In this document: in pieces, positions 5,813 to 55,258 of the stretch
How the letters are laid out: every line of letters starts with the position of its first letter
Position numbering within the stretch: the first letter of the stretch is position 1
Source: Asticcacaulis excentricus
GTDB lineage: Bacteria; Pseudomonadota; Alphaproteobacteria; Caulobacterales; Caulobacteraceae
Assembly (NCBI RefSeq): GCF_003966695.1
Contig: NZ_AP018827.1
Coordinates: forward strand, 2,212,501 to 2,276,500
Direction: 5' to 3'
DNA: 64,000 nt
Position numbers and translations under genes: made by a program
Notes under the pieces: generated by a model
Databases searched by the model: none
Told to the model about the DNA's origin: nothing
Seen by the model: only the letters and a program-made list of their open reading frames with translations

Positions 5813-7405
5813 TCAGCGCACCGCCACCTTCTGCTTGAGCAGGAACCACGTCACCGCATCGAACAGGGCGTCGTTTGAGGCATCAATCACGTTCGGGCTG
5901 ACCCCCAGCGTGTGCCAGGCGTGGCCGTCCGTATCGCGGCTTTCGATCACCACGCGGGTCAGGGCTGCGGTGGCGTCCGATGGTGTCAGGATGCGCACCT
6001 TATAGTCCGACAGGTGCATGGCCTTCAGTTCCGGATAGTGCGGCGTCAGGGCCTTGCGCAGCGCCTCATCCAGCGCATTGACCGGGCCATTGCCTTCGGC
6101 CACGGTCATCACGGTTTCCCCGGCGACCGACAGCTTGACAGTGGCCTCGGCCATCGTGTCCTGCGCGCCGGAGGCCTCAACGCGGCATTCGTTCAGCGCG
6201 CGATAGCTGAGGAGTTCGTAATAGCGCGGCAACTGCCCCAGAAGCCCGCGGGCCAGAAGCTCGAACGAGGCGCTGGCGTCTTCATAGGCATAGCCCATCG
6301 CCTCGCGGTCCTTGACGATCTTCACCAGCTCATTGACGCGCTCATCATCGGCGGCGACCGCAATGCCCATCTGCTCCAGACGGTTCAGCACATTGGCGCG
6401 GCCCGCCTTGTCCGAGACTAGGATCAGCCGCGTATTGCCGACCAGCGCCGGGTCGATATGCTCATAGGAGCGGCTGTCGCGCGCCATAGCTGAAACATGC
6501 AGGCCGCCCTTGTGCGCAAAGGCGCTCTTGCCGACATAGGCGGCGTGGCGGTTGGGCACGCGGTTCAGCCGGTCGTCGATCAGACGCGACAGCGAGCCAA
6601 TCTCCTTGAGCTGTTCCATCGACACGCCCGTCTCATAACCCATCTTGAGCATCAGGGTGGGGATCAGGGCGATCAGATTGGCGTTGCCGCAGCGCTCGCC
6701 AATGCCGTTGATCGTGCCCTGAATCTGACGCACCCCGGCCTCAACAGCGGCCAGCGAATTGGCCACGGCCTGCTCGGTATCATTATGGCAGTGGATGCCC
6801 AGACGCGCCTCAGGCAGCCTGGCCTTGACGTCGGAGACGATGCGATACACCTCGGACGGCATCGAGCCGCCATTGGTGTCGCACAGGATGATCCACTCCG
6901 CCCCGGCCTGATAGGCAGCCGTAAGGGCCTCCAGCGCATAAGCGGGATTGGCCTTATAGCCGTCGAAGAAGTGTTCGGCGTCGAAATGCGCCTCACGACC
7001 CTGCGCGATCATGTGGCTGAGCGAATCCCCAATCATTTTCAGGTTTTCGCTGGTCGAAACCTTCAGTGCCGTCTCGACCTGCCAGTCCCAGCTCTTGCCG
7101 ACCAGACAGACGGCCGGCGTGTTGGCGTTGAGAATGTCCTGAAGGCCCGGATCGTTTGAGGCCGAACGCCCGACGCGGCGCGTCATGCCAAAGGCCGAGA
7201 CCTTGGCAAAGCGCGTCTTCGGCACGCGCGCAAAAAAGGCGTCATCCGTGGGGTTGGCCCCCGGCCAGCCGCCTTCGATATAGTCGATGCCAAAGGCGTC
7301 CAGCGCCTCAGCAATCGCCAGCTTGTCGGCAACGGTGAAGTCAATCCCCTGCGCCTGCGATCCGTCGCGCAGGGTGGAGTCATAAAGATAGATACGCTCG
7401 GCCAT
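5813..7405 (-). CDS. cimA: (R)-citramalate synthase
   Basis: A 530-residue member of the alpha-isopropylmalate synthase/homocitrate synthase superfamily, of the CimA branch. It condenses pyruvate with acetyl-CoA to give citramalate, the entry to 2-oxobutyrate and isoleucine without threonine. The N-terminus has the LYDSTLRDGSQ metal- and substrate-binding motif. The TIM-barrel includes ILCDTNGG and GIHCHNDTEQAVANSLAAV (metal-binding HxH region), followed by GTINGIGERCGNANL. The C-terminal third resembles the LeuA-type allosteric dimer domain. The length fits CimA better than LeuA or NifV. It is convergent with the GPH transporter and transcribed in the same direction as the pseF operon, 104 bp downstream of pseF. 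Its role is unrelated to the surrounding catabolic genes. Confidence 0.9.
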   Translation of the reverse strand: MAERIYLYDSTLRDGSQAQGIDFTVADKLAIAEALDAFGIDYIEGGWPGANPTDDAFFARVPKTRFAKVSAFGMTRRVGRSASNDPGLQDILNANTPAVCLVGKSWDWQVETALKVSTSENLKMIGDSLSHMIAQGREAHFDAEHFFDGYKANPAYALEALTAAYQAGAEWIILCDTNGGSMPSEVYRIVSDVKARLPEARLGIHCHNDTEQAVANSLAAVEAGVRQIQGTINGIGERCGNANLIALIPTLMLKMGYETGVSMEQLKEIGSLSRLIDDRLNRVPNRHAAYVGKSAFAHKGGLHVSAMARDSRSYEHIDPALVGNTRLILVSDKAGRANVLNRLEQMGIAVAADDERVNELVKIVKDREAMGYAYEDASASFELLARGLLGQLPRYYELLSYRALNECRVEASGAQDTMAEATVKLSVAGETVMTVAEGNGPVNALDEALRKALTPHYPELKAMHLSDYKVRILTPSDATAALTRVVIESRDTDGHAWHTLGVSPNVIDASNDALFDAVTWFLLKQKVAVR

Positions 7406-7509: not shown

Positions 7510-8202
7510 CTATTTCTCACCGGCTCTGAGGGCTGCGAACATCTGTTCGGCGACCTCCCAGTCTTCGGGTGTGTCGATATCGACGACCTCGGTGCGCGGC
7601 AGGATGACCGGGGCGGAATGAATCGAAAAGACGTCTTCGCCATTCAGCGCCGCCTCCGTCCAGCTCCAGTAGAACTGCGCCGCGTCGTGATAGGCGGGCA
7701 CGAGGTCCTGAGAGCGCGTCATGCGGTGTTCGGGCTGGAACATGGCTACCCCGCCCTCCGGCGTGACATAGAGGGCGCGCTGGATAGGGAAGGCGTAGCT
7801 GGTCACCGAAAAGGCGTGGCGCTTGCCCTGAAGCGCCTCCCAGCCCTCGATCAGGCGTTTGGCGGTCAGAAACGGGGCGGTGGCATAGAGGCAGCACAGG
7901 GCGTCGGGGCGCTCCCCCTGTGCGATCAGCCAGTCGAGGGCGTGGGCCATGACCGCGCCGGTCCCCGCATGGTCGTTGGAAAGTTCCGGCGGGCGCACAA
8001 ACGGCGTTTGCGCCCCGCAGGCGCGCGCCACTTCGGCGATTTCATCATCATCGGTCGATACGATGATGCGTTCAAACAGGCCGGACTCAACGGCCGCGCG
8101 GATCGAATAGCCGATCATGGGCTGCCCGAAGAAGGGCTTGATATTCTTGCGCGGGATGCGCTTTGACCCGCCGCGTGCCGGAATGATACAGACCCGTCTC
8201 AT
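7510..8202 (-). CDS. pseF: Pseudaminic acid cytidylyltransferase
   Basis: A 230-residue CMP-nonulosonate synthetase that activates pseudaminic acid (or a close nonulosonic acid) with CTP to give the CMP-sugar. The N-terminus IIPARGGSKRIPRKNIK is the diagnostic nucleotide-binding motif of the NeuA/PseF/LegF family. STDDDEIA follows around residue 50 and DIDTPEDW near the end. The PseF rather than NeuA assignment is supported by KRIPRKNIKPFFGQPMI and by the PseG homologue in the facing operon. Its ATG overlaps the stop of the upstream PhyH-type gene by 4 bp, so translation is probably coupled. PseB, PseC and PseI are not in the window and must be elsewhere. Confidence 0.88.
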   Translation of the reverse strand: MRRVCIIPARGGSKRIPRKNIKPFFGQPMIGYSIRAAVESGLFERIIVSTDDDEIAEVARACGAQTPFVRPPELSNDHAGTGAVMAHALDWLIAQGERPDALCCLYATAPFLTAKRLIEGWEALQGKRHAFSVTSYAFPIQRALYVTPEGGVAMFQPEHRMTRSQDLVPAYHDAAQFYWSWTEAALNGEDVFSIHSAPVILPRTEVVDIDTPEDWEVAEQMFAALRAGEK

Positions 8203-9128
8203 CGCAGAAAGACCTGATTGATGTAAGCGTCAAATCCGCCGGGATTGTCCATCACCGAGGCCTTCGGCGAATGCGGCGTGGCGTAGAGATTATACTGAAA
8301 CGCCAGCAGCAGACGCGGGCGCGACACGGGCAACAGCCCCTTATGAAAGCCATAGACGTCTTCCAAGAACCACGAGCCGGCGGGCGCGGTCAGCGTCACC
8401 ACCTTGTCGGCCCCGAAGGCCGCTTCGATATCGGCATCCGTCTGGGCCTTGCCCGTTTCGAGGATGGGGGAGCGATGAGAGCCGCGCACGAACACATGCG
8501 GGCCGGATTGGGCGTCGATGTCGGTCAGATAGTAGAAGAGTTTGACATTGCCGACGCAGTCGTAATCGCGATGGAACCGTTGAACGCCCTTGGCCGTGGC
8601 GCGGCCGGGGAAGGACCAAACGGCCCCGATATTGTCGAGAATAGGCCGCGCCCCCAGATACAGCTCGGCAGCCGCCAGAACGTCTGGATGGTTGGCTAAC
8701 GCTAGCGCGTGCGGGGCGCGGATCACCTCTTCGGGCGTGTAATAGCCAATATTGATGTCTTCGGACGGCACCTCATCCCAGCGAAACCGCCCCAGATGCG
8801 GGCGATAGGGGTCGTGGCAGGGCAGGTCGCGGAAATAGGCCGTGAGGTCGCTCAACACCTGCGCATCAATGGGTGGCTGAATGGCGGTAAAACCGTCTTC
8901 GCGCAGCTCCGCACACAGGGACTGCGCCAGAGGTGAGGGCGCAAGGTCGGGTGTACGAGGTTTAAAGTGACGGATGAGGCGGCTTACCCGTTGCCGACCG
9001 CGATAATCGAGCAGTGGCAACAGGTCGTAGGCAATATTGCGCCGGTCAGCGCGGGCGCGCGCGGCAAAATGCCGCCATGAGGGAACCCGCGTTTTCAGGC
9101 GCTCTCGCAATCCCGGCGTCTGAGCCAC
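8199..9128 (-). CDS. Phytanoyl-CoA dioxygenase (PhyH)-type Fe(II)/2-oxoglutarate oxygenase
   Basis: A 309-residue protein with a double-stranded beta-helix of the PhyH family. FHRDYD provides the proximal His and Asp metal ligands and GFHKG, about 90 residues later, the distal His. A following SRPRLLLAFQYN stretch can supply the 2-oxoglutarate-binding Arg. The first 90 residues are basic and not part of the core. Such enzymes hydroxylate acyl chains, sugars or amino acids. It sits between an acyl carrier protein gene and pseF in one operon and starts with GTG. In this context, hydroxylation of an acyl-ACP or of a nonulosonate derivative is plausible, but the substrate is unknown. Confidence 0.78.
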   Translation of the reverse strand: MAQTPGLRERLKTRVPSWRHFAARARADRRNIAYDLLPLLDYRGRQRVSRLIRHFKPRTPDLAPSPLAQSLCAELREDGFTAIQPPIDAQVLSDLTAYFRDLPCHDPYRPHLGRFRWDEVPSEDINIGYYTPEEVIRAPHALALANHPDVLAAAELYLGARPILDNIGAVWSFPGRATAKGVQRFHRDYDCVGNVKLFYYLTDIDAQSGPHVFVRGSHRSPILETGKAQTDADIEAAFGADKVVTLTAPAGSWFLEDVYGFHKGLLPVSRPRLLLAFQYNLYATPHSPKASVMDNPGGFDAYINQVFLR

Positions 9129-9142
9129 GGCGTCCGCCGGTC

Positions 9143-9364
9143 TCAGAGCCCGACCAGAGCGGCCAGATCCTTGATGGTTTGCGCGGCGCGCAGTTGATCA
9201 CCGCTAACCACCGTATTGTAGTTGGCGTCGGCCATGGCCACAAAGGTGATAACGGCCAGGCTGTCCCAGTTGCCAAGCTCTGTCAGGGTTTCCGCACCCG
9301 TCAGACCCGCCGGGTCGATTTCGAGAATTTCCGCCACAGAGGCGATGAAGGCCTGATCGGTCAT
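9143..9364 (-). CDS. Stand-alone acyl carrier protein
   Basis: A 73-residue protein of the usual ACP length with four predicted helices. The phosphopantetheine attachment site is the Ser of GNWDSLA around residue 35. It differs from the housekeeping AcpP signature (DSLD/EL) and resembles dedicated ACPs found in polysaccharide or secondary-metabolite clusters. It is the first gene of the leftward operon acp-phyH-pseF and lies back-to-back with a KAS III-type gene. This arrangement strongly suggests that it carries the acyl intermediate acted on by the enclosed oxygenases and transferases. Confidence 0.85.
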   Translation of the reverse strand: MTDQAFIASVAEILEIDPAGLTGAETLTELGNWDSLAVITFVAMADANYNTVVSGDQLRAAQTIKDLAALVGL

Positions 9365-9554
9365 GAGTTTTTTCCCGCGCCGTAGATATTGAAAACCGTA
9401 GGCTTCGATCCTTGGGTGATCCGCTTAATATTCCCTTAAACGTGGCCCTGTTTGTGCGGGCCCCACAGGCGGCGCGCCCTGTCCCTTAACGCGATCTTAA
9501 CGCAAAGCAGCGGATGACAGGCGCAGTCCATAACACGGGATTCGGGAGCGTTTC
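9365..9554. promoter_or_regulatory. Divergent promoter region of the acyl/nonulosonate module
   Basis: 190 bp without coding potential separates the leftward acp operon from the rightward KAS III operon, so both promoters must lie here. Two similar TTCCCTTAA / GTCCCTTAA stretches are visible near 9430 and 9480. No confident -35/-10 pair or operator was recognised. CGGGAG just before 9555 serves as ribosome binding site for the KAS III gene. Confidence 0.5.
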
Positions 9555-10622
9555 ATGACCGAAGGCAGATTGCAGGGCGTGGCGGTGCGCGGCATCCGGG
9601 CCTGTGTTCCCAAGAGCGGACGGACGCTGGCCGAAGAGGGCCTGATCCCCGATGAGGCCGAGCGCGAACGCCTGATCAAATCCATCGGCGTGCGCTCACG
9701 ACGCATCGCCCCGGAAGGGGTGATGACCTCCGATCTGTGTCAGCGGGCCGCCGAAGGTTTGCTCGATCAGTTGGGCTGGGCGCGCGACAGCATTGACGTG
9801 CTGATCTTTGTCACCCAAAGCGCCGACTATGTGGCCCCAGCCACCGCCTGCGCGCTGCAACACCGGCTGGGTCTGGGCTCGTGTCTGGCCTTTGACGTCA
9901 ATCTGGGCTGTTCGGGCTATACCTACGGCCTGTGGATGGTGGCTTCGCTCCTGAAGACGCTGAGCATTGGCGGGCGTCCGGCGCGGGGTCTGCTGCTGGC
10001 CGGGGACGTCTCGACCTCGCGTCTGTTGAAAGATGATCGCGCCACCGTGCCGCTGTTTGGGGATGCGGGGACCGCCACGGCGCTGGAGGTGGATGCCTCT
10101 GCCCCGGAAATGACCGGCGTGTTTGGCACTGACGGTGCCGGGGCTCCGCACATCATGGTGGAGGCCGGGGGCATCAAACTGCCACTTCTGCCGCAGGACG
10201 GACCGCAGGACGAAGAGACGCAGGCCCGGCTTTACCGCGCCTCGCGCCTCTATCTCAATGGCCCCGAAGTCTTCACCTTCACGCTCAAAAACGTCCCGTC
10301 TCTGGTCAGCCAGATTCTCGCCGCCGCCGGCAGCACGGTCGAGGACATCGAGCATGTGGTCTTCCATCAGGCCAATGTCTTCATGCTGGAACACCTGCGC
10401 AAGAAGGCGGGCCTGCCGGCGGAGAAGGTGCCGATCGCCATGGAAACCTATGGAAACACCTCTTCGGCCTCCATCCCGCTGACCATTGCTGACCGCCTGT
10501 CCGATACCTTCGCCACCCCCACACCGGTTCTGCTGGTCGGTTTTGGGATCGGCTGGTCGTGGGCGGCCCTGAAGCTGCATCTGGGCCCCATGCCGCAGTG
10601 TGTGGTCGATGACTATGACTGA
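9555..10622 (+). CDS. Beta-ketoacyl-ACP synthase III-type enzyme
   Basis: A 355-residue thiolase-fold protein of the FabH/KAS III family. All three catalytic residues are in place: Cys in NLGCSGY (about residue 119), His in FHQAN (about 275) and Asn in YGNTSSAS (about 305). FabH itself condenses acetyl-CoA with malonyl-ACP; relatives in biosynthetic clusters use other starters or make C-C or ester bonds. The low similarity to FabH outside the motifs and the cluster position argue for a dedicated role. It is the first gene of a five-gene rightward operon and overlaps the start of the Rieske gene. It probably partners with the ACP at 9143-9364. Confidence 0.85.
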   Translation: MTEGRLQGVAVRGIRACVPKSGRTLAEEGLIPDEAERERLIKSIGVRSRRIAPEGVMTSDLCQRAAEGLLDQLGWARDSIDVLIFVTQSADYVAPATACALQHRLGLGSCLAFDVNLGCSGYTYGLWMVASLLKTLSIGGRPARGLLLAGDVSTSRLLKDDRATVPLFGDAGTATALEVDASAPEMTGVFGTDGAGAPHIMVEAGGIKLPLLPQDGPQDEETQARLYRASRLYLNGPEVFTFTLKNVPSLVSQILAAAGSTVEDIEHVVFHQANVFMLEHLRKKAGLPAEKVPIAMETYGNTSSASIPLTIADRLSDTFATPTPVLLVGFGIGWSWAALKLHLGPMPQCVVDDYD

Positions 10623-11772
10623 TGTAGCGCCACAGGACATGCCGCAGACGCATGAAACCTGGAGGCAAAGGCTGGGTCTGATCCCGGCGGATCATTATTA
10701 TCGCGAGGACGTCCTATCGGCTGAGATTGAGCGCGTGTTTGCGCGTAGCTGGCTGTGCGTCGGCTTCGTGCAGGATCTGGCTCAGCCCAATGATTTCCTC
10801 ACCTTTCAGGTCGGCCCCCACAGCATCGTCGTGCAAAACTGTGAGGGCGTTTTGCGGGCCTTTCGCAATGTCTGCTCGCACCGCTTTGCCCGCATCCAGT
10901 GTACGCGGTCGGGTAACCGGCCCCTGACCTGTCCCTATCATGGCTGGACCTACGATGCGGCGGGCCGTCCGGCGGGCATCCCGCTGAACCGGCAGAATTT
11001 TGAGTTTAACGACGCTGATAAGGACGCGCTGGCACTCAAAGCCTATGCGCTGGAAACCGTCGGGCATTTCGTCTTTGTGCGGATGAATGCCGAAGGGCCT
11101 GACCTCAAGACCTTTCTGGGCAGCTTTTATGATGACCTGGCCCACGTTTCCGAGGCCTGCCCGGACCGTTTTGAGCACGAAGTGCTCGACTGGTCGGTGA
11201 ACTGGAAGCTCGGCATGGACAATGCCGCCGAAGGCTATCACCTGCCGATGGTGCATTCGGGCAGTTTCAGCCTTATCCTGTCTACCGATCTGACGCTCAG
11301 CACCGATGCAGGCCATAGCCGCTATACCGGTAAGCTGCGCGACCGCTCACGTAAATGGTGGGACAATGTGGCGCGCGCCATAAAGCTTGAGCGCGGTGAT
11401 CTTTACCCGGAATATGCCAGCTTTCTGATCTTCCCCAACATCATCGTCACCTTCTCCTACGGCGCGTTTCTGACGTTTCAGACGTTTGAGCCGACCGGCA
11501 CGGACAGTCTGCGCCTGACGACGACGGGCTGGCTCGGCAAAAACAATGGCCGCGCTGCCCGCGACATGGTGGCCGACAGCCTGCGCGGTTTTACAAAACA
11601 GGTGCGTGACGAAGACCGCGACATCTGTCAGGTGACGCAGGCCGGGATGCGCGATGCGCCGCCGCAGCGGCCGCCGCTTCTGGGGGCCATGGAAGACCGT
11701 ATCGCTGAGTTTCAGCGTACCTATATGCGCCTGATGACGCCTCCCCCTCCTGCTGAAAGAGATATGCCGTGA
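10609..11772 (+). CDS. Rieske [2Fe-2S] ring-hydroxylating-type oxygenase, alpha subunit
   Basis: A protein of about 387 residues. The N-terminal Rieske domain has CSH followed 17-18 residues later by CPYHGW, giving the two Cys and two His ligands. The C-terminal catalytic domain has the mononuclear-iron region NWKLGMDNAAEGYHLPMVHSG (the H-x4-H type pair), typical of aromatic-ring hydroxylating dioxygenases and related monooxygenases. It needs a reductase and often a ferredoxin; neither is encoded nearby. ATG codons at 10609 and 10615 are both possible, each overlapping the KAS III stop. In this operon it probably oxidises an acyl or sugar intermediate rather than an aromatic compound, but this is inference. 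Confidence 0.82.
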   Translation: MTMTDVAPQDMPQTHETWRQRLGLIPADHYYREDVLSAEIERVFARSWLCVGFVQDLAQPNDFLTFQVGPHSIVVQNCEGVLRAFRNVCSHRFARIQCTRSGNRPLTCPYHGWTYDAAGRPAGIPLNRQNFEFNDADKDALALKAYALETVGHFVFVRMNAEGPDLKTFLGSFYDDLAHVSEACPDRFEHEVLDWSVNWKLGMDNAAEGYHLPMVHSGSFSLILSTDLTLSTDAGHSRYTGKLRDRSRKWWDNVARAIKLERGDLYPEYASFLIFPNIIVTFSYGAFLTFQTFEPTGTDSLRLTTTGWLGKNNGRAARDMVADSLRGFTKQVRDEDRDICQVTQAGMRDAPPQRPPLLGAMEDRIAEFQRTYMRLMTPPPPAERDMP

Positions 11773-12533
11773 CGACTTCATTTCATCCGATGGATATGAC
11801 GGGACGGACCGTTCTGGTCACCGGGGCGACCAGTGGCATAGGACAGGCGGCGGCCGTCTATCTGTCTAAGCTTGGGGCGCGCGTGGTGGCCAGTGGCCGC
11901 AACGCCGAACGGCTTGAGGAAACGCTTTCCCTGCTGGAAGGCGAAGGCCATGTCGGCAAGCTGTTCGATCTGGCCGACACCGCGGGTATCGTGCCCTGGC
12001 TGAAGGCCTTATGCGCCGAGGTCGGACCGTTGAACGGTATCGCCCATTGCGCCGGGATACAGGGCACCCTGCCCATACAGGCGGTGACGCCCACCTTTGC
12101 GCACGATGTGCTGATGCAGAATCTGGCGGCTTCGCTGATGCTGGCGCAGGGTTTCCGCCTCAAGGTGTGCCACACGCCGCAGGCTTCGCTGGTGTTTGTC
12201 TCGTCCTCAGCGGCGTTGAAAACCGCGCCGGGCAATGTGGTCTATGCCGCCTCAAAGGGCGGGCTGATCTCGGCCGTCAAGGGGCTGGGGGTCGAGCTGG
12301 TCCGCGACGGCATCCGCGTCAACGCCATTGCCCCGGCCATGGTCGAAACGCCGATGTCGGAGAATTTCAAGAACAAGGTCTCCGAAGAGAAGTTCCAGAA
12401 GATTATCGACATGCAGCCTCTGGGTCTGGGGCGACCTGAGGACGTGGCGGCGTCTATCGCCTTCCTTCTGGCCGATACCTCGCGCTGGATCACCGGCACG
12501 GTGCTGTGCGTTGATGGTGGCTTCACGGCCTGA
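11769..12533 (+). CDS. Short-chain dehydrogenase/reductase
   Basis: A 254-residue classical SDR. TGATSGIGQAAA near the N-terminus is the NAD(P)-binding TGxxxGxG motif. SSSAALKTAPGNVVYAASKGG contains the catalytic Ser and the YxxxK pair. It starts with GTG and overlaps the Rieske gene stop by 4 bp. In this operon it may reduce the 3-keto group created by the KAS III-type enzyme, in the manner of FabG, or oxidise a hydroxyl left by the oxygenases. The direction and substrate cannot be told from sequence. Confidence 0.85.
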   Translation: MTTSFHPMDMTGRTVLVTGATSGIGQAAAVYLSKLGARVVASGRNAERLEETLSLLEGEGHVGKLFDLADTAGIVPWLKALCAEVGPLNGIAHCAGIQGTLPIQAVTPTFAHDVLMQNLAASLMLAQGFRLKVCHTPQASLVFVSSSAALKTAPGNVVYAASKGGLISAVKGLGVELVRDGIRVNAIAPAMVETPMSENFKNKVSEEKFQKIIDMQPLGLGRPEDVAASIAFLLADTSRWITGTVLCVDGGFTA

Positions 12534-12551
12534 CCGGGGGAGGGGGCGCAC

Positions 12552-13538
12552 ATGCATCTGTGGGTGCGTACCGAAGCCTCAGCGCAGATTGGTCTGGGCC
12601 ACTTTATGCGCTGTTTCGCCGTGGCTGAGGCGGCGCGTCATCGCGGTATGGCCGTGACCTTTCTGCTCAACGAGTCCACGGAGGCCATTCGTTCGCGTCT
12701 GGCGCAGATCGGCGCGGGATGCCGACGACTGGAGACAGCGATCGGCAGCCCGCAAGATGCTGCGGCCATACGCGCCAGCGTGCCCACAGGCGAGCTGTTG
12801 CTGGTCGATTCCTACGCGGTGGGGGCTGACTTCTATACCGATCTGTATGCGGATTATCGGCTGGCTGTGTTTGATGATCTGGCGCAGGTGCGACCGCTGA
12901 ACGTGCATCTGGTGATCAATGCCGCCGCTTCGGCATCGCCAGAGATGTATGCCGAAATCGCCCCGGATGCGCAGCTCTGCCTGGGGCCGGACTATGCGCC
13001 CATCCGCCACGAATTCCGGCGCACCTACCCCACATCAGCCCGCGCGCACATCAGCGTTCTGTTTGGCGGATCGGACCCCAAAGGGTTTACCACCCTGTGC
13101 GCCGAGGCCCTGCTTGAGGTCGCGCCGCGCTATGATATCCGCCTGATCGTCGGCCCGGCCAATGGCGATGTCGATGCCCTGCGCCGCCTGTGTGCGGCCC
13201 ATGCGGCTTTGAAACTCTATCTGTCGCCTGACAATGTGGCCGAGGTGTTAAGCGGGGCGTCTCTGGTCGTCACGGCGGCCGGCGGTAGTGTCGGTGAGGT
13301 TGCCGCCATGGGTCTGCCCGCTCTGGTTATGGTGGTGGTCGATAATCAGGCCGCCTTGCTCAGCGCCTCGCCCTATCCGGTTCTGGATGCGCGCGACGGC
13401 TGGCCCGACGGTTTCAAAGACAAGGTAAAGACCCTTCTGTCTGATGTGCTCGGCCGTGTCTCTATGGCGGCCAAAGCTCACGCTCTGGTCGATGGGCGCG
13501 GCGCGGAACGTATAGTGGAGGCCATGACCCGTGTATGA
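12552..13538 (+). CDS. pseG: UDP-2,4-diacetamido-2,4,6-trideoxy-beta-L-altropyranose hydrolase
   Basis: A 328-residue GT-B-fold nucleotide-sugar hydrolase. PseG removes UDP from the bacillosamine-like altropyranose intermediate before condensation with phosphoenolpyruvate by PseI. The N-terminus RTEASAQIGLGHFMRCFAVA matches the PseG start pattern with its glycine-rich IGxGHxxRC motif. FGGSDPKG and the AAGGSVGEVAAMG stretch fit the C-terminal UDP-binding half. It shares an operon with KAS III, Rieske and SDR genes and overlaps the next gene by 8 bp. This is the firmest link between the acyl-chemistry genes and pseudaminate synthesis. Confidence 0.88.
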   Translation: MHLWVRTEASAQIGLGHFMRCFAVAEAARHRGMAVTFLLNESTEAIRSRLAQIGAGCRRLETAIGSPQDAAAIRASVPTGELLLVDSYAVGADFYTDLYADYRLAVFDDLAQVRPLNVHLVINAAASASPEMYAEIAPDAQLCLGPDYAPIRHEFRRTYPTSARAHISVLFGGSDPKGFTTLCAEALLEVAPRYDIRLIVGPANGDVDALRRLCAAHAALKLYLSPDNVAEVLSGASLVVTAAGGSVGEVAAMGLPALVMVVVDNQAALLSASPYPVLDARDGWPDGFKDKVKTLLSDVLGRVSMAAKAHALVDGRGAERIVEAMTRV

Positions 13539-14091
13539 GTTTTTAAGCTACAGGCCGGTGCAACCGGATGACGCCAAGCTGTTGCTGGATTGGCGTACAT
13601 CGGTGCGCATCACGCAATTCATGCTCACCGACGTGCCCTACGATATCGAGCGCCAGCGCGGCTGGATCGAACGCTGCGCCAGCCGTAACGACTATCATCA
13701 CCGCATCATCTGCATCGAAGGCCGCGATGTCGGCTATACCTCGATTACCGTAACCGACCCGGTGAATGGGATAGGCGAGGTGGGGGTCTATGTGGGCGAC
13801 GAAATCGTGCCACCCACCCTGTCGGCCTATAATTTTATAGGCACGCTGAACCACGCCTTCTGCACGCTGGGCCTGCATAAGCTGGTCAATCACATCGTCC
13901 ACTGGAACGACCGCGTGGTGCGGGCGCAGACCTTCAACGGCTATCGCCATGTTGGTGTGCTGAAAAATCACGTCCTAAAAAACGGGGTGCGCCACGACCT
14001 GCATATCTTTGAGCAGGAGGCGGCAGAATGGCGCACCTTCCGTAAAAAATTCCCCGACACCCGCGACTGGGACGGCAACGAGACAGAGTAG
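13531..14091 (+). CDS. GNAT acyltransferase, PseH-like
   Basis: A 186-residue GNAT-fold protein starting with GTG inside the end of pseG. The LLLDWRTSVRITQFM stretch resembles the FxWRN region of PseH, which acetylates the 4-amino group of the UDP-altrosamine intermediate. A C-terminal DWDGNETE tail is extra. The acyl-CoA loop expected in GNATs (Q/RxxGxG/A) is not obvious in the middle region, where GVYVGDEIVPPTLSAYNFIG occupies that place. A second GNAT at 50168-50755 looks more like ordinary PseH. This one may use an acyl-ACP or a larger acyl-CoA made by the adjacent enzymes; that is a hypothesis. Confidence 0.72.
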   Translation: MYEFLSYRPVQPDDAKLLLDWRTSVRITQFMLTDVPYDIERQRGWIERCASRNDYHHRIICIEGRDVGYTSITVTDPVNGIGEVGVYVGDEIVPPTLSAYNFIGTLNHAFCTLGLHKLVNHIVHWNDRVVRAQTFNGYRHVGVLKNHVLKNGVRHDLHIFEQEAAEWRTFRKKFPDTRDWDGNETE

Positions 14092-14129: not shown

Positions 14130-15038
14130 TTAGAGTTCAAGATTCAGACGATAAAGCCGGTTGGCATTGCCCGCGAACATGGCCTTGCGTTCGGCCTCGG
14201 AGACGTCACGGGTCACCGCGTCAAACGACTCCATTATGGTCCTGTAGTCCGAGAACAGCTTATCGGTCGGTACGTCAGAGGCGAACATCACGCGATCCGT
14301 GCCGAAGATGTCGATGACCGTCAGCACCAGAGGTCGGATGGACTCGGTTGTCCAGTGGCGATTGGCAAAGCCCATGCCGGAAATCTTCACCGAGACGTTC
14401 GGCTGGGCGGCTAGCGCCTTCAAGCCCGCTTCCCAGCGGCTCAGATAGCCCTCGCCGTCATTGACTGGCATACCTGCATGATTGAGCATGACGGGAATGT
14501 CGGGGTGCTTTGCCGCCAGAGCCGCCGCTGCCGCCATCTGGTTTTCGTAGATTTGCAGGTCGAAGGACAGGCCGTATTTGGCCAGCAGGGCATAACCGGC
14601 CTGCCATTGCGGGTCCTCCAGAAGGTTGGCGGGCGTATAGCTGAAATAGGGGTCGGGGTGCCAGTTGAGGATGTGGCGGATGCCGCGCACGGCGGAATGC
14701 TGCGTATGGGCTTCCAGCAGGGCTTCGACCTTCGGATCGTTCAGCCCGGCAAAGGCAACAATGGCGGTAGGCAGACCGGTCTGTTCGTGCAGTTTTTGCA
14801 GCCACTGCGTCTCGGCCAGGGCGTCGTCCGGATGTGCACCGGCGTCGATATGCACGGTGCCGCGGACGTCAAAGCCTGTGGCGTCGGTTTGATAATGTGA
14901 GGGGAGGTAGGTCGAAGCGATGGCCTCGGTGGAGCCATTGACGCCGGTATCGTCGAACGGCGCGCTCAGCCAGCCGTAGCGCAGATGGTCTAGGTCCCAC
15001 AGGTGAATATGGGCGTCGATGAAAGGCAGTTTGGTCAT
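14130..15038 (-). CDS. Amidohydrolase-family sugar lactonase (probable L-rhamnono-gamma-lactonase)
   Basis: A 302-residue amidohydrolase_2 (TIM-barrel metal hydrolase). The N-terminal FIDAHIHLWD has the HxH metal motif, VMLNHAGMP carries a later His and MFASDVPTD the catalytic Asp. Relatives hydrolyse L-fucono-, L-rhamnono- and similar lactones. With rhamnose dehydrogenase, rhamnonate dehydratase and the two later enzymes in the same block, the lactonase step (LRA2) of non-phosphorylating L-rhamnose catabolism is the best reading. It has a good GGAGG ribosome site, and 178 bp separates it from the next gene upstream on its strand. L-fuconolactone is the main alternative substrate. Confidence 0.82.
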   Translation of the reverse strand: MTKLPFIDAHIHLWDLDHLRYGWLSAPFDDTGVNGSTEAIASTYLPSHYQTDATGFDVRGTVHIDAGAHPDDALAETQWLQKLHEQTGLPTAIVAFAGLNDPKVEALLEAHTQHSAVRGIRHILNWHPDPYFSYTPANLLEDPQWQAGYALLAKYGLSFDLQIYENQMAAAAALAAKHPDIPVMLNHAGMPVNDGEGYLSRWEAGLKALAAQPNVSVKISGMGFANRHWTTESIRPLVLTVIDIFGTDRVMFASDVPTDKLFSDYRTIMESFDAVTRDVSEAERKAMFAGNANRLYRLNLEL

Positions 15039-50167: not shown

Positions 50168-50755
50168 GTGAAAGATGTAGTGCTCATGTTGGCGTCACCT
50201 TCTCTGGCCACCCTGCGGCCGCTGGCTTCCGAAGACCGCGAGCGCCTGTTTGACTGGCGCAACCGCGAAGAGGTGCGCCGGTACATGTACACCGACACCC
50301 TGATCCCCTGTGAGCGGCATGAGGCGTGGTTTGAGGCCTTAAGCGGCAATGAGACGCGGCGCTATTTCATTATCGAATGGGACGGGCAGCCGGTCGGGCT
50401 GGCCAATTTCGTCGATATCGACCGGGTGTCGCAAAAGGCGGCCTGGGCCTTCTATCTGGCCGAAACCACAGCGCGCGGTAAAGGCCTGGGCGCGTGGGTC
50501 GAATTTCAGATGATCGAGCACGCTTTCAACGTCCTCAACCTCGAAAAGCTGTGGTGTGAGGTGCTGGAAAGCAATGGCGCCGTGTGGAAGCTGCACCAAT
50601 CCTTTGGCTTTCAGACCGAAGCGCATTTCCGCCGCCACGTGGTCAAATCCGACGGGCCGCACGATGTGATCGGGCTGGGGCTGTTGCGCGCCGACTGGGC
50701 CGCGGTGCGCGACGATTGCCGGGCGCGGCTTCTGAGTCATGGATACACGGTTTAA
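50168..50755 (+). CDS. GNAT acetyltransferase, PseH-like
   Basis: A 195-residue GNAT that resembles PseH (UDP-4-amino-4,6-dideoxy-N-acetyl-beta-L-altrosamine N-acetyltransferase). FDWRNREEVRRYMYTD fits the PseH FxWRN-x-x-x-x-x-x-M block. ARGKGLGAWVEFQMIEHAFN is the acetyl-CoA loop with RGKGLG, and EVLESNGAVWKLHQSFGFQ is the typical end motif. It is more canonical than the protein at 13531, so this may be the ordinary acetyltransferase of the pseudaminate pathway. Start GTG at 50168 or ATG at 50186. It is divergent from the KAP gene. Confidence 0.78.
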   Translation: MKDVVLMLASPSLATLRPLASEDRERLFDWRNREEVRRYMYTDTLIPCERHEAWFEALSGNETRRYFIIEWDGQPVGLANFVDIDRVSQKAAWAFYLAETTARGKGLGAWVEFQMIEHAFNVLNLEKLWCEVLESNGAVWKLHQSFGFQTEAHFRRHVVKSDGPHDVIGLGLLRADWAAVRDDCRARLLSHGYTV

Positions 50756-53840: not shown

Positions 53841-54100
53841 CGCCGCTCTTATGCGCAAAAGCCGCGACGGGCTCAAGCGAAATCCGAAGGGCGCGGATCA
53901 CGTCTGCCGCCGCCTTAGCACGGCGCATCGCCCGCGTAAATGTCCGACAAGTGAAGGCGTATACGGTATCCGAATATTTGGCCTGCCGCGCCGCGACGAT
54001 AGGCCGCAGATGAAACGATAGGTAATGCCTTTTGAGGTGCGCCGGGCGTGAGGGGTGATAAGTCTCTGCCTCAACTTATGTGGCTTACCGAAGGTGTCTC

Positions 54101-55258
54101 ATGGCTATTCCCTTTATTGATCTGGGTGCGCAGCGCGAACGCATTGGCGCGTCTATCGAAGACGGGATCAAAAAGGTGCTCAATCATGGCGCCTATATTA
54201 TGGGGCCAGAGGTCCGCACCTTTGAGGCCAATCTGGCGGCCTTCGCCGGATCGAAGCACGCCCTGTCGTGCGCCAATGGCACGGACGCCATCGAGCTGGT
54301 CCTGCTGGGGCTGGGTGTGGGTAAGGGCGATGCGGTGTTTGTCCCGGCCTTCACCTTTGTGGCCACCGCCGAAGTGGTGCCGATGACAGGGGCTGAGCCG
54401 GTCTTTGTCGATATCGACCCGAAAACCTACAATATGGACCCGGTGAAGCTTGAGGCCGCCATCGCCGCCGTCAAGGCCGAAGGGCGTCTGAAACCCGCCG
54501 CGGTCATCGCGGTCGATCTGTTCGGGCAGGCCGCCGACTATCCGGCGATCTCCAAAATCACGCAGGCGCACGGCCTGTTCCTGATTGCCGACTCGGCGCA
54601 GGGCTTTGGTTGTACGATTGATGGCAAGCAGCCGCTGGAATGGGCGCACGCCACCTCGACCAGCTTCTACCCGGCCAAGCCTCTGGGTTGCTATGGCGAC
54701 GGTGGGGCGGTGGTGCTCAATGACGACGCCTTGCTGGAGCGCCTGATCTCGTTCCGGGTGCACGGCGGCGCGACGCCGACCGACGCGGCGACCATGAACT
54801 ACACGCATGAGGCCAAGTATCTGAACGTGCGCATCGGCATGAATTCGCGCCTCGATACAATTCAGGCCGCCGTGCTGATCGAAAAGCTGGCCATCTTTGC
54901 CGAAGAGATCGCGCTGCGTCAGGCCGTCGCCAAGCGCTATAATGAGGCGCTGGACGGCTATGTGACCAGCGTGCCCTATGTGAAGGACGGCTACGTCTCG
55001 ACCTGGGCGCAATATACGATCGAGCATGAAAACCGCGACGGCCTGCAAATTTTTCTTCGTGAAAAAGGCATCCCGACGGCGGTCTATTACCCCATCCCCC
55101 TGCATCAGCAGCCGGGCTATGCGATATTCAAATCCGGCACGGGTGATCTGAGCGTTTCGGAAACCAAGTCGAAGGCGGTGATCAGCCTGCCCTTCAGCCC
55201 CTATCTCACCGCCGAAACGCAAGCCGAAATTGTCGCGGCGGTAAAGGCGTTTAAGTAG
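54101..55258 (+). CDS. DegT/DnrJ/EryC1-family sugar aminotransferase (WbpE-like)
   Basis: A 385-residue PLP-dependent aminotransferase from the ATG at 54101. The substrate/PLP pattern appears as CANGTDAIELVLLGLG, ADSAQGFGC (PLP-binding Asp) and STSFYPAKPLGCYGDGG, with the Schiff-base Lys. The N-terminal IPFIDLGAQRERI matches WbpE/WlbC-like enzymes that transfer an amino group to C3 of a UDP-keto-sugar for lipopolysaccharide or capsule sugars. It is not clearly a PseC. The following small gene may be cotranscribed. Exact substrate unknown. Confidence 0.85.
   Translation: MAIPFIDLGAQRERIGASIEDGIKKVLNHGAYIMGPEVRTFEANLAAFAGSKHALSCANGTDAIELVLLGLGVGKGDAVFVPAFTFVATAEVVPMTGAEPVFVDIDPKTYNMDPVKLEAAIAAVKAEGRLKPAAVIAVDLFGQAADYPAISKITQAHGLFLIADSAQGFGCTIDGKQPLEWAHATSTSFYPAKPLGCYGDGGAVVLNDDALLERLISFRVHGGATPTDAATMNYTHEAKYLNVRIGMNSRLDTIQAAVLIEKLAIFAEEIALRQAVAKRYNEALDGYVTSVPYVKDGYVSTWAQYTIEHENRDGLQIFLREKGIPTAVYYPIPLHQQPGYAIFKSGTGDLSVSETKSKAVISLPFSPYLTAETQAEIVAAVKAFK

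Follow-up and report, generated by a model that had tools for sequence, protein, structure and literature searches.

Genes for building acyl groups have already been described in flagellar sugar islands, and a 3-hydroxybutanoyl form of pseudaminic acid is likewise in print. This article examines a cluster of eight genes in a stretch of 64,000 nucleotides from Asticcacaulis excentricus (assembly GCF_003966695.1, contig NZ_AP018827.1, positions 2,212,501 to 2,276,500; 'the window' below, with positions counted from its first letter). Here, genes of the pathway for the nonulosonate pseudaminic acid are joined to genes for an acyl carrier protein (ACP), a 3-oxoacyl-ACP synthase III (KAS III), a short-chain dehydrogenase/reductase (SDR), a Rieske oxygenase, a PhyH-type oxygenase and an N-acyltransferase of the GNAT family. 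The cluster is read as covering the later half of a pathway for pseudaminic acid, one that would install a made-to-order N-acyl group instead of acetyl; judged from sequence, this reading is given a probability of about two in three. The N-acyl groups of nonulosonates contribute to the way in which hosts, phages and neighbouring cells perceive flagella and capsules. To our knowledge, the genes that build non-acetyl groups for these sugars are little known.

Known systems for acylated flagellar sugars

Papers are cited here by PubMed Central number, for those parts of their text that were available. The viosamine island of Pseudomonas syringae comprises vioA, vioB, vioS, vioR, acp, vioM and vioT (PMC3927599). 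Genes for a KAS III (vioS), a reductase (vioR), an ACP (acp) and a transferase (vioB) stand together, and the flagellin sugar is N-(3-hydroxy-1-oxobutyl)viosamine. Mass spectrometry after deletion of vioR showed that the modified viosamine was lost from flagellin; vioS and acp were given their roles by homology (PMC3927599). Like the window, this island has genes for a KAS III, an ACP and a 3-oxoacyl-ACP reductase beside an amino-sugar N-acyltransferase gene, and this gene trio is present in the window cluster, where the reductase is an SDR by family. The two differ in the sugar and the transferase, with viosamine and VioB in P. syringae, but pseudaminate and a GNAT in the window, to which Rieske and PhyH genes are added. 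Neither a VioA aminotransferase nor a VioB acyltransferase was found among the eight cluster genes and two neighbours scanned.

The flagellin island of Pseudomonas aeruginosa PAK is listed with ACP, 3-oxoacyl-ACP, reductase and transferase genes, and its orfF as a 2Fe-2S ferredoxin (PMC4020848). For Acinetobacter baumannii, the module listed under Pse5Ac7Ac is psaABCDEF, and that under 7-N-[(R)-3-hydroxybutanoyl]pseudaminic acid is psaABCGHF (PMC9676051); the modules differ in two genes, so that the group at N7 seems to change with two pathway genes. The second module resembles the present proposal in providing pseudaminate with a non-acetyl acyl group at N7. Its available description names no KAS III, ACP or oxygenase, and the likeness is one of description, not of sequence (PMC9676051). 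Together, the viosamine and psa precedents make it the simplest reading of the window that a built hydroxyacyl group would be put on N7.

In the group II polar flagellin islands of Aeromonas, genes for an ACP, a 3-oxoacyl-ACP reductase and an AMP-dependent synthetase lie between pse genes, and a 'liposugar' has been proposed (PMC7874193, PMC4875605). These and the enterobacterial flagellin islands differ from the window in that LuxE and LuxC are listed, while KAS III, Rieske and PhyH are unnamed in the available text. No AMP-dependent synthetase, LuxE or LuxC is present among the ten proteins scanned between 5813 and 15038. The sfmABCDE genes of Shewanella oneidensis were considered as a characterised homologue and set aside; a reductase is present, but none of the five is described in the available text as a KAS III, Rieske or PhyH protein. 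Searches of the open-licence literature, which misses most subscription journals, turned up no case in which KAS III, ACP, SDR and Rieske (with or without PhyH) are combined with pseudaminate genes and a PseH-like GNAT. No open-licence PubMed Central paper was found that has pseudaminic acid together with phytanoyl-CoA; two have nonulosonic acids together with Rieske, one of them on the animal enzyme CMAH.

The acyl and pseudaminate genes of the window

The cluster consists of two divergent operons, whose features are as follows.

7510–8202, minus strand: PseF, CMP-pseudaminic acid synthetase (TIGR03584, 318.6 bits; cut-off 205.7)
8199–9128, minus strand: PhyH-type Fe(II)/2-oxoglutarate oxygenase, probably an optional tailoring enzyme (PF05721, 32.7 bits; cut-off 22)
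9143–9364, minus strand: dedicated ACP (PF00550, 34.3 bits; cut-off 20.8), with Ser35 in a DSL motif
9365–9554: intergenic region between the divergent operons, with promoter motifs not above chance
9555–10622, plus strand: KAS III-type condensing enzyme (PF08541 and PF08545)
10600–11772, plus strand: Rieske non-haem iron oxygenase (PF00355 and PF00848), with an uncertain GTG start at 10600
11769–12533, plus strand: SDR, probable 3-oxoacyl-ACP reductase, the activity assigned by family only
12552–13538, plus strand: PseG, UDP-sugar hydrolase of the pseudaminate pathway (TIGR03590, 182.3 bits; cut-off 153.55)
13531–14091, plus strand: PseH-like GNAT, proposed N-acyltransferase for the built acyl group (TIGR03585, 53.5 bits; below the cut-off of 93.1)

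Open reading frames and profile matches bear out the preliminary description, made from the letters alone, of eight genes at these positions with their family motifs, including the Cys-His-Asn set of the KAS III. Adjacent genes overlap by 4, 23, 4 and 8 bases or are separated by gaps of 14 and 18 bases; the 23-base overlap between the KAS III and Rieske genes hangs on the GTG start, and the true overlap may be shorter. PseF and PseG pass their equivalog tests, but the GNAT fails that for PseH and is hence filed as PseH-like rather than as PseH.

The KAS III has Cys119, His271 and Asn301, which are invariant in an 11-row alignment (A1). It scores 170.2 bits against a cut-off of 292.1 (TIGR00747) and 208.8 against 249 (NF006829) with the FabH models, and these cut-offs rule out an ordinary FabH of fatty acid synthesis. 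The Rieske oxygenase has the ligand residues Cys92/His94/Cys111/His114 together with His214 and His219 (invariant in the eight rows of alignment A3), and PhyH has His186-x-Asp188, His262 and Arg272 (invariant in the four rows of A6). Further motif residues are Tyr159-x3-Lys163 in the SDR and His17 in PseG. From family knowledge, we take the motif residues in KAS III, ACP, SDR, Rieske, PhyH and PseG to be catalytic.

A candidate sigma-54-like promoter at 9443 in the divergent region was discarded, as five such matches occur in the window with 4.9 expected by chance; scans of the same region for sigma-70-like and terminator-like motifs gave no more than chance. On the PseF strand, 104 bases downstream, lies a citramalate synthase gene (5813–7405; TIGR00977, 660 bits, cut-off 450) that is probably unrelated; it was rejected as a cluster member, as an M24 peptidase gene follows PseF instead in Asticcacaulis sp. 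AC466. An L-fuconolactonase-like amidohydrolase gene (14130–15038) was also left out.

Shared occurrence across Alphaproteobacteria

Linkage between the acyl and pseudaminate genes can be followed at the level of whole genomes. Two samples were used, one of 249 genomes from the order and one of 385 genomes from the class; the class searches scored the best five (KAS, Rieske) or best eight (GNAT) first-look candidates per genome. At E 1e-60 or better, KAS III occurs in the order sample in the window genome and one other (39 and 42% identity). A close KAS clade (E 2e-99 or better) is present in eight of the 385 class genomes, which span four families and six genera, with an additional match at E 1e-65 or better in G362. 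The GNAT family (E 1e-30 or better) occurs in exactly the same eight genomes. Rieske matches at E 1e-130 or better are found in seven of the eight and in no other genome of the sample; the next ones range from about 3e-80 down to 1e-60 (G362, G435, G525 and G602). PseG is over its cut-off in 51 of the 385 genomes, among them seven of the eight with the KAS clade. Fisher tests against the KAS clade, uncorrected for kinship, give 9e-17 for GNAT, 3e-14 for Rieske and 3.5e-6 for PseG, or 6e-5 when PseG is taken at E 1e-20 (76 of 385 genomes).

Some of these hits are built in. The GNAT alignment (A4) holds rows of the window, G394 and G523, and the Rieske alignment (A3) rows of the window, G523, G299, G600 and G422. 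The genomes newly added by the search are G299, G308, G422, G517 and G600 for A4, and G394 and G517 for A3; across the 385 genomes, none outside the KAS set matched either alignment at the stated E lines.

Each of the KAS III, ACP, SDR and oxygenase families has many roles in lipid or polyketide synthesis, and parts of the set do occur without pse genes. Could the acyl genes make an unrelated product of this kind and stand beside the pse genes by accident? This is very improbable and was rejected on the co-occurrence: four families of the class sample combine the KAS clade with GNAT and PseG, and the shared profile persists when the genes are distant from each other. More than 50 kb separate the GNAT gene from the KAS gene in G422 and G517, which means that the link is not only one of neighbourhood.

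Genome content beyond the class sample points the same way. For the genomes of 45 of 80 loci found with the KAS protein, together with four class genomes, PseG at E 1e-40 or better is present in 19 of 20 module-side genomes (counting G644, whose KAS is of a second type described below) vs three of 29 with distant KAS relatives only. A match at 1.2e-28 brings the latter to four of 29 (Fisher, 8e-9), and weak matches down to 1e-3 occur in more. When whole genomes are searched for PseH, the best match belongs to the GNAT family of the module in all but two of 21 genomes (19), the exceptions being the window genome and G644; matches were assigned to loci by coordinates, with a sequence check for G630, G637 and G641. 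In most of these genomes the module GNAT is thus the best candidate for the PseH step.

Gene neighbourhoods of related loci

The scan of public genomes with the window KAS that gave the 80 loci was extended with plasmid and whole-genome stretches, and 94 distinct loci were examined, after three duplicates had been dropped (L034, L035 and L039, which repeat L093, L052 and L059). Some genomes or species contribute more than one locus, and many stretches end at contig ends. Loci are termed high-scoring at 326 bits or more to the window KAS (n = 21); L058 falls just below this line, yet lies inside the clade by tree. The closest relative of the window KAS III, from Asticcacaulis sp. AC466, shares 70% identity with it, and the next relatives reach at most 53%. 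In a tree of 95 KAS proteins, the window falls within a 22-row clade with support of 100/100; the KAS of L059, a locus that also has the GNAT gene, is outside this clade.

Within the stretches examined, the high-scoring loci contain GNAT (19 of 21), SDR (19) and PseG or PseI (14). The other 73 loci have neither GNAT nor PhyH; Rieske genes (at least 80 bits) are present in 12 and PseG or PseI in five. The GNAT contrast, 19 of 21 against none of 73, is a further argument against an unrelated lipid or polyketide. Pairwise distances between module proteins are correlated, with r of 0.85 for KAS–SDR, 0.87 for SDR–GNAT, 0.91 for SDR–Rieske, 0.89 for KAS–Rieske, 0.67 for KAS–GNAT and 0.54 for KAS–PseG (L057, a near-copy of L030, was left out). 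This is as expected of genes that travel together, with common host descent adding to the effect.

The gene order in Asticcacaulis AC466 (L046) amounts to the window arrangement beside the half of the pathway that is distant in the window genome. Over about 19 kb, genes for a WecG-type protein, PseB, PseC and PseI are followed by pirin, M24 peptidase and two other unrelated genes. PseF and an ACP gene then lie on one strand, in the same divergent position as PseF in the window, facing KAS, Rieske, SDR, a hydrolase and a second ACP; an AMP-binding protein (L046:14006–15085), a second SDR and KAS, PseG and GNAT complete the stretch. PhyH was not found in this stretch, and no genome-wide search for it was made.

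Outside Asticcacaulis, the two kinds of gene are mixed. In Shewanella corallii (L050), KAS-SDR-PseG-Rieske-PseI-cytidylyltransferase-ACP-SDR-GNAT run in one direction, with PseG, PseI and GNAT above equivalog cut-offs. Psychrobium DT_95 has KAS and SDR at a contig end and, on another contig, PseG-Rieske-PseI-ACP-SDR-GNAT in the same order as S. corallii. In Acetobacter lambici (L056), PseB, PseC and PseI face PseG-ACP-SDR-Rieske-GNAT-KAS-SDR; plasmid p3 of Azospirillum brasilense Sp7 carries pseI, pseG, GNAT, SDR, Rieske and KAS within 12 kb; and in a Rhodobacteraceae bacterium the acyl gene set is mixed with pse genes. Such mixed sets in Shewanellaceae, a Rhodobacteraceae bacterium and Acetobacter again speak against chance proximity.

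That the acyl genes and the pseudaminate genes would serve one pathway is strongly supported, because of the shared profile, the single stretch in AC466, the mixed sets in relatives and the fact that, for 19 of 21 genomes, a module GNAT is the top hit for PseH. The preliminary description had called for a neighbourhood comparison, and the acyl set and the pse genes indeed prove to be conserved together in the class sample and the 94 loci. Its claim that all eight genes serve one product is supported for the acyl and pse genes as members of one predicted pathway and has to be relaxed for PhyH, which appears to be optional.

Two side observations concern related genes. The Rieske protein is seemingly split into neighbouring genes for the Rieske domain and the catalytic domain at L029:7554–9169, L038:4158–5764, L049:17278–18683 and L054:7374–9013, as annotated in L029 and judged from matches elsewhere. 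This is an unusual arrangement; an unsplit copy lies nearby in L029, L038 and L054. Five loci (L032, L041, L042, L044 and L109) have a second-type KAS III with ACPs, a hydrolase, an AMP-binding protein, an SDR and pseI, and a flagellin gene adjoins in all five. By their gene content, they are predicted to be a sister acyl cassette for pseudaminate.

Proposed pathway

The genes, their motifs, their conserved linkage and their shared phylogenetic profile suggest the following scheme, in which we infer every catalytic step, how long the chain is, whether it is oxidised before or after transfer, where it is attached and which glycan receives it. KAS III would join a short acyl-CoA to malonyl carried by the dedicated ACP, and reduction of the 3-oxo group by the SDR would give 3-hydroxyacyl-ACP (3-hydroxybutanoyl by precedent). 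The Rieske oxygenase, plus PhyH where present, would add a hydroxyl or other oxidation to the chain. The PseH-like GNAT would then move the chain onto the C4 amine of the UDP-sugar supplied by PseB and PseC, after which PseG would remove UDP, PseI would add the three-carbon unit and PseF would activate the sugar with CMP. The predicted product is a CMP-Pse5Ac7-acyl whose N7 bears a short hydroxyacyl chain that has been oxidised; it is probably meant for flagellin and is possibly a form of pseudaminic acid not yet described.

In the established pathway, N7 of the nonulosonate derives from the amine at C4 of the UDP-sugar. The attachment given earlier, to the 4- or 7-amino group, is corrected on this basis: the amine concerned is that at C4 of the UDP-sugar, which turns into N7.

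The Rieske oxygenase most likely oxidises the acyl chain, since its gene seems to track the acyl genes rather than pseudaminate. In an alternative order of events, Rieske (and PhyH) would act later, on an N-acyl group already attached to the UDP-sugar or to the free or CMP-activated nonulosonate, in the manner of animal CMAH. That enzyme has a Rieske domain and hydroxylates the acetyl methyl group of sialic acid (PMC8227644), so that, if late oxidation holds, both systems would make an oxygen-dependent change to a nonulosonate N-acyl group. The position of the gene leaves the order unsettled, as its neighbours are KAS and SDR in the window and PseG and PseI in S. corallii; and G602, which has PseG and lacks the KAS clade, gives a weaker Rieske match (E 2.7e-80). 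However, 44 genomes of the class sample have PseG and no member of the KAS clade, and in none of them does Rieske reach E 1e-130; Rieske also joins ACP, KAS and SDR in the absence of PseG and PseI, where the common factor looks like the acyl chain. The C-terminal domain of CMAH, moreover, is beta-lactamase-like (PMC8227644), whereas the catalytic half here is PF00848. Late oxidation is considered unlikely, and the chain would, tentatively, be oxidised on its carrier.

An ordinary PseH in the window genome

This picture is complicated by a gene missing from the preliminary description.

50168–50755, plus strand: ordinary PseH, a lone gene (TIGR03585, 163.6 bits; cut-off 93.1)

The gene lies 36 kb from the GNAT gene. 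Its neighbours are a KAP-type NTPase gene and, in the other direction beyond two small open reading frames, an aldehyde dehydrogenase gene. Its product may compete with or complement the module GNAT. The window genome thus has a PseH well above the equivalog cut-off besides the GNAT, and this PseH could make the N7-acetyl group, leaving the GNAT to acylate another amine, a hydroxyl group or a second sugar. Such a division of labour is doubtful, and somewhat more so than late oxidation. A PseH match over the cut-off is present in only three of the 21 genomes, the window genome and two others (G633 and G641) in which the module GNAT itself gives that match; the GNAT is, in addition, PseH-like by profile and its gene overlaps PseG by 8 bases. 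Transfer of the built chain by the GNAT at the PseH step remains the preferred assignment.

As a further observation, a gene for a DegT-type aminotransferase lies at 54080–55258 of the window; it scores 224 bits with the PseC model and so falls short of the cut-off of 423.5.

Gene sets without pseudaminate genes

Several findings weigh against the proposed pathway. The lone PseH is one of them, as the GNAT may not be doing the N7 step here, or not alone; the Rieske match of G602 is another. The remainder concern gene content. Within the 21 high-scoring loci the genes are not universal: Rieske (at least 80 bits) is found in 14, ACP (at least 40 bits) in nine, a count that rests on a single short query and may miss further ACPs, and PhyH (at least 200 bits) in five. 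A PhyH protein of A. thermophilum (L031) was excluded from the family of the window PhyH at 23% identity. In seven of these loci (L093, L029, L047, L031, L054, L038 and L059) the examined stretch has no PseG or PseI at 60 bits. PseG is present elsewhere in the genomes of L093, L047, L054 and L038 and was not found in that of L059; L029 and L031 are plasmids, and the PseG search did not extend to their genomes.

At 11 loci, a more distant Rieske gene accompanies KAS and SDR with neither PseG nor PseI nearby; three of the 11 sit in genomes with PseG elsewhere (G649, G668 and G659, the last with a match of 100 bits). An aminotransferase is classified at four of the 11, with its best match to the DesI model and below that model's cut-off; in two, an acyltransferase was classed as NeuD/PglB/VioB-type, with a score above the cut-off in one case and below it in the other. 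Finally, one Rhodospirillales metagenome-assembled genome (L059/G308/G642) has KAS, SDR and the module GNAT, with no PseG in the genome; this is perhaps the same cassette on another sugar. The preliminary description had named sets lacking pseG/pseF as evidence that would count against it, and such sets exist in part, at the 11 loci without PseG or PseI nearby and in G308/G642.

A broader reading is held to be evenly poised: an exchangeable ACP/KAS III/SDR/Rieske cassette would be fitted to one amino sugar or another according to the N-acyltransferase that goes with it, with a PseH-like GNAT serving pseudaminate and a VioB/PglD-type enzyme other 4-amino sugars, and bacteria would tailor nonulosonate N-acyl groups in an oxygen-dependent manner (by Rieske, sometimes PhyH). 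As part of the same reading, this tailoring would be a functional counterpart, by another route, of N-glycolyl sialic acid synthesis in animals.

As a separate observation, many loci between L060 and L125, mostly from Bacteroidota, show a recurring KAS-ACP-KAS-SDR set with two condensing enzymes and pse genes not nearby.

Remaining pathway genes and possible glycan target

PseB, PseC and PseI, which had been expected to lie elsewhere in the genome, are indeed found together at G000:C1:1691659–1695176, about 525 kb from the cluster, in a genome of three contigs that total 3.79 Mb. They score 509, 460.4 and 499.5 bits, all above equivalog cut-offs, and stay under the cut-offs of the sialate and legionaminate models listed alongside; a WecG/TagA-type glycosyltransferase gene precedes them. 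Pseudaminate genes are likewise scattered over several loci in Caulobacter, where FlmG modifies flagellins; the pathway of the flm genes has been rebuilt in E. coli K-12 (PMC7591256). In that organism FlmC is said to be without homology to PseF, whereas the window genome has a true PseF; the main text of the Caulobacter paper, as available, contains no word starting with 'acyl' (PMC7591256).

The product of the module is probably destined for flagellin, and a polysaccharide may be a target. The genome has four flagellin matches, and beside three of them lies the gene for a tetratricopeptide repeat (TPR) protein of 1189 residues (L126:11991–15560, G000:C2). The Caulobacter flagellin transferase FlmG is itself a TPR plus glycosyltransferase protein (PMC7591256). 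For the FlmG-like protein, the C-terminal part gave no Pfam or meaningful solved-structure match, and its role as a glycosyltransferase is one that we infer. Its last 359 residues, the first part of which is still TPR-like, match proteins encoded past the flagellin gene in L109, L044 and L032, where pseI, the second-type KAS III and flagellin are neighbours, and also proteins in the KAS locus L048.

Implications

The cassette points to enzymes with which new N-acylated nonulosonates could be produced in the laboratory. If it travels between sugars, prediction of the acyl group from sequence would become possible. An oxygen-dependent step on a nonulosonate N-acyl group, if true, would parallel that of animal CMAH.

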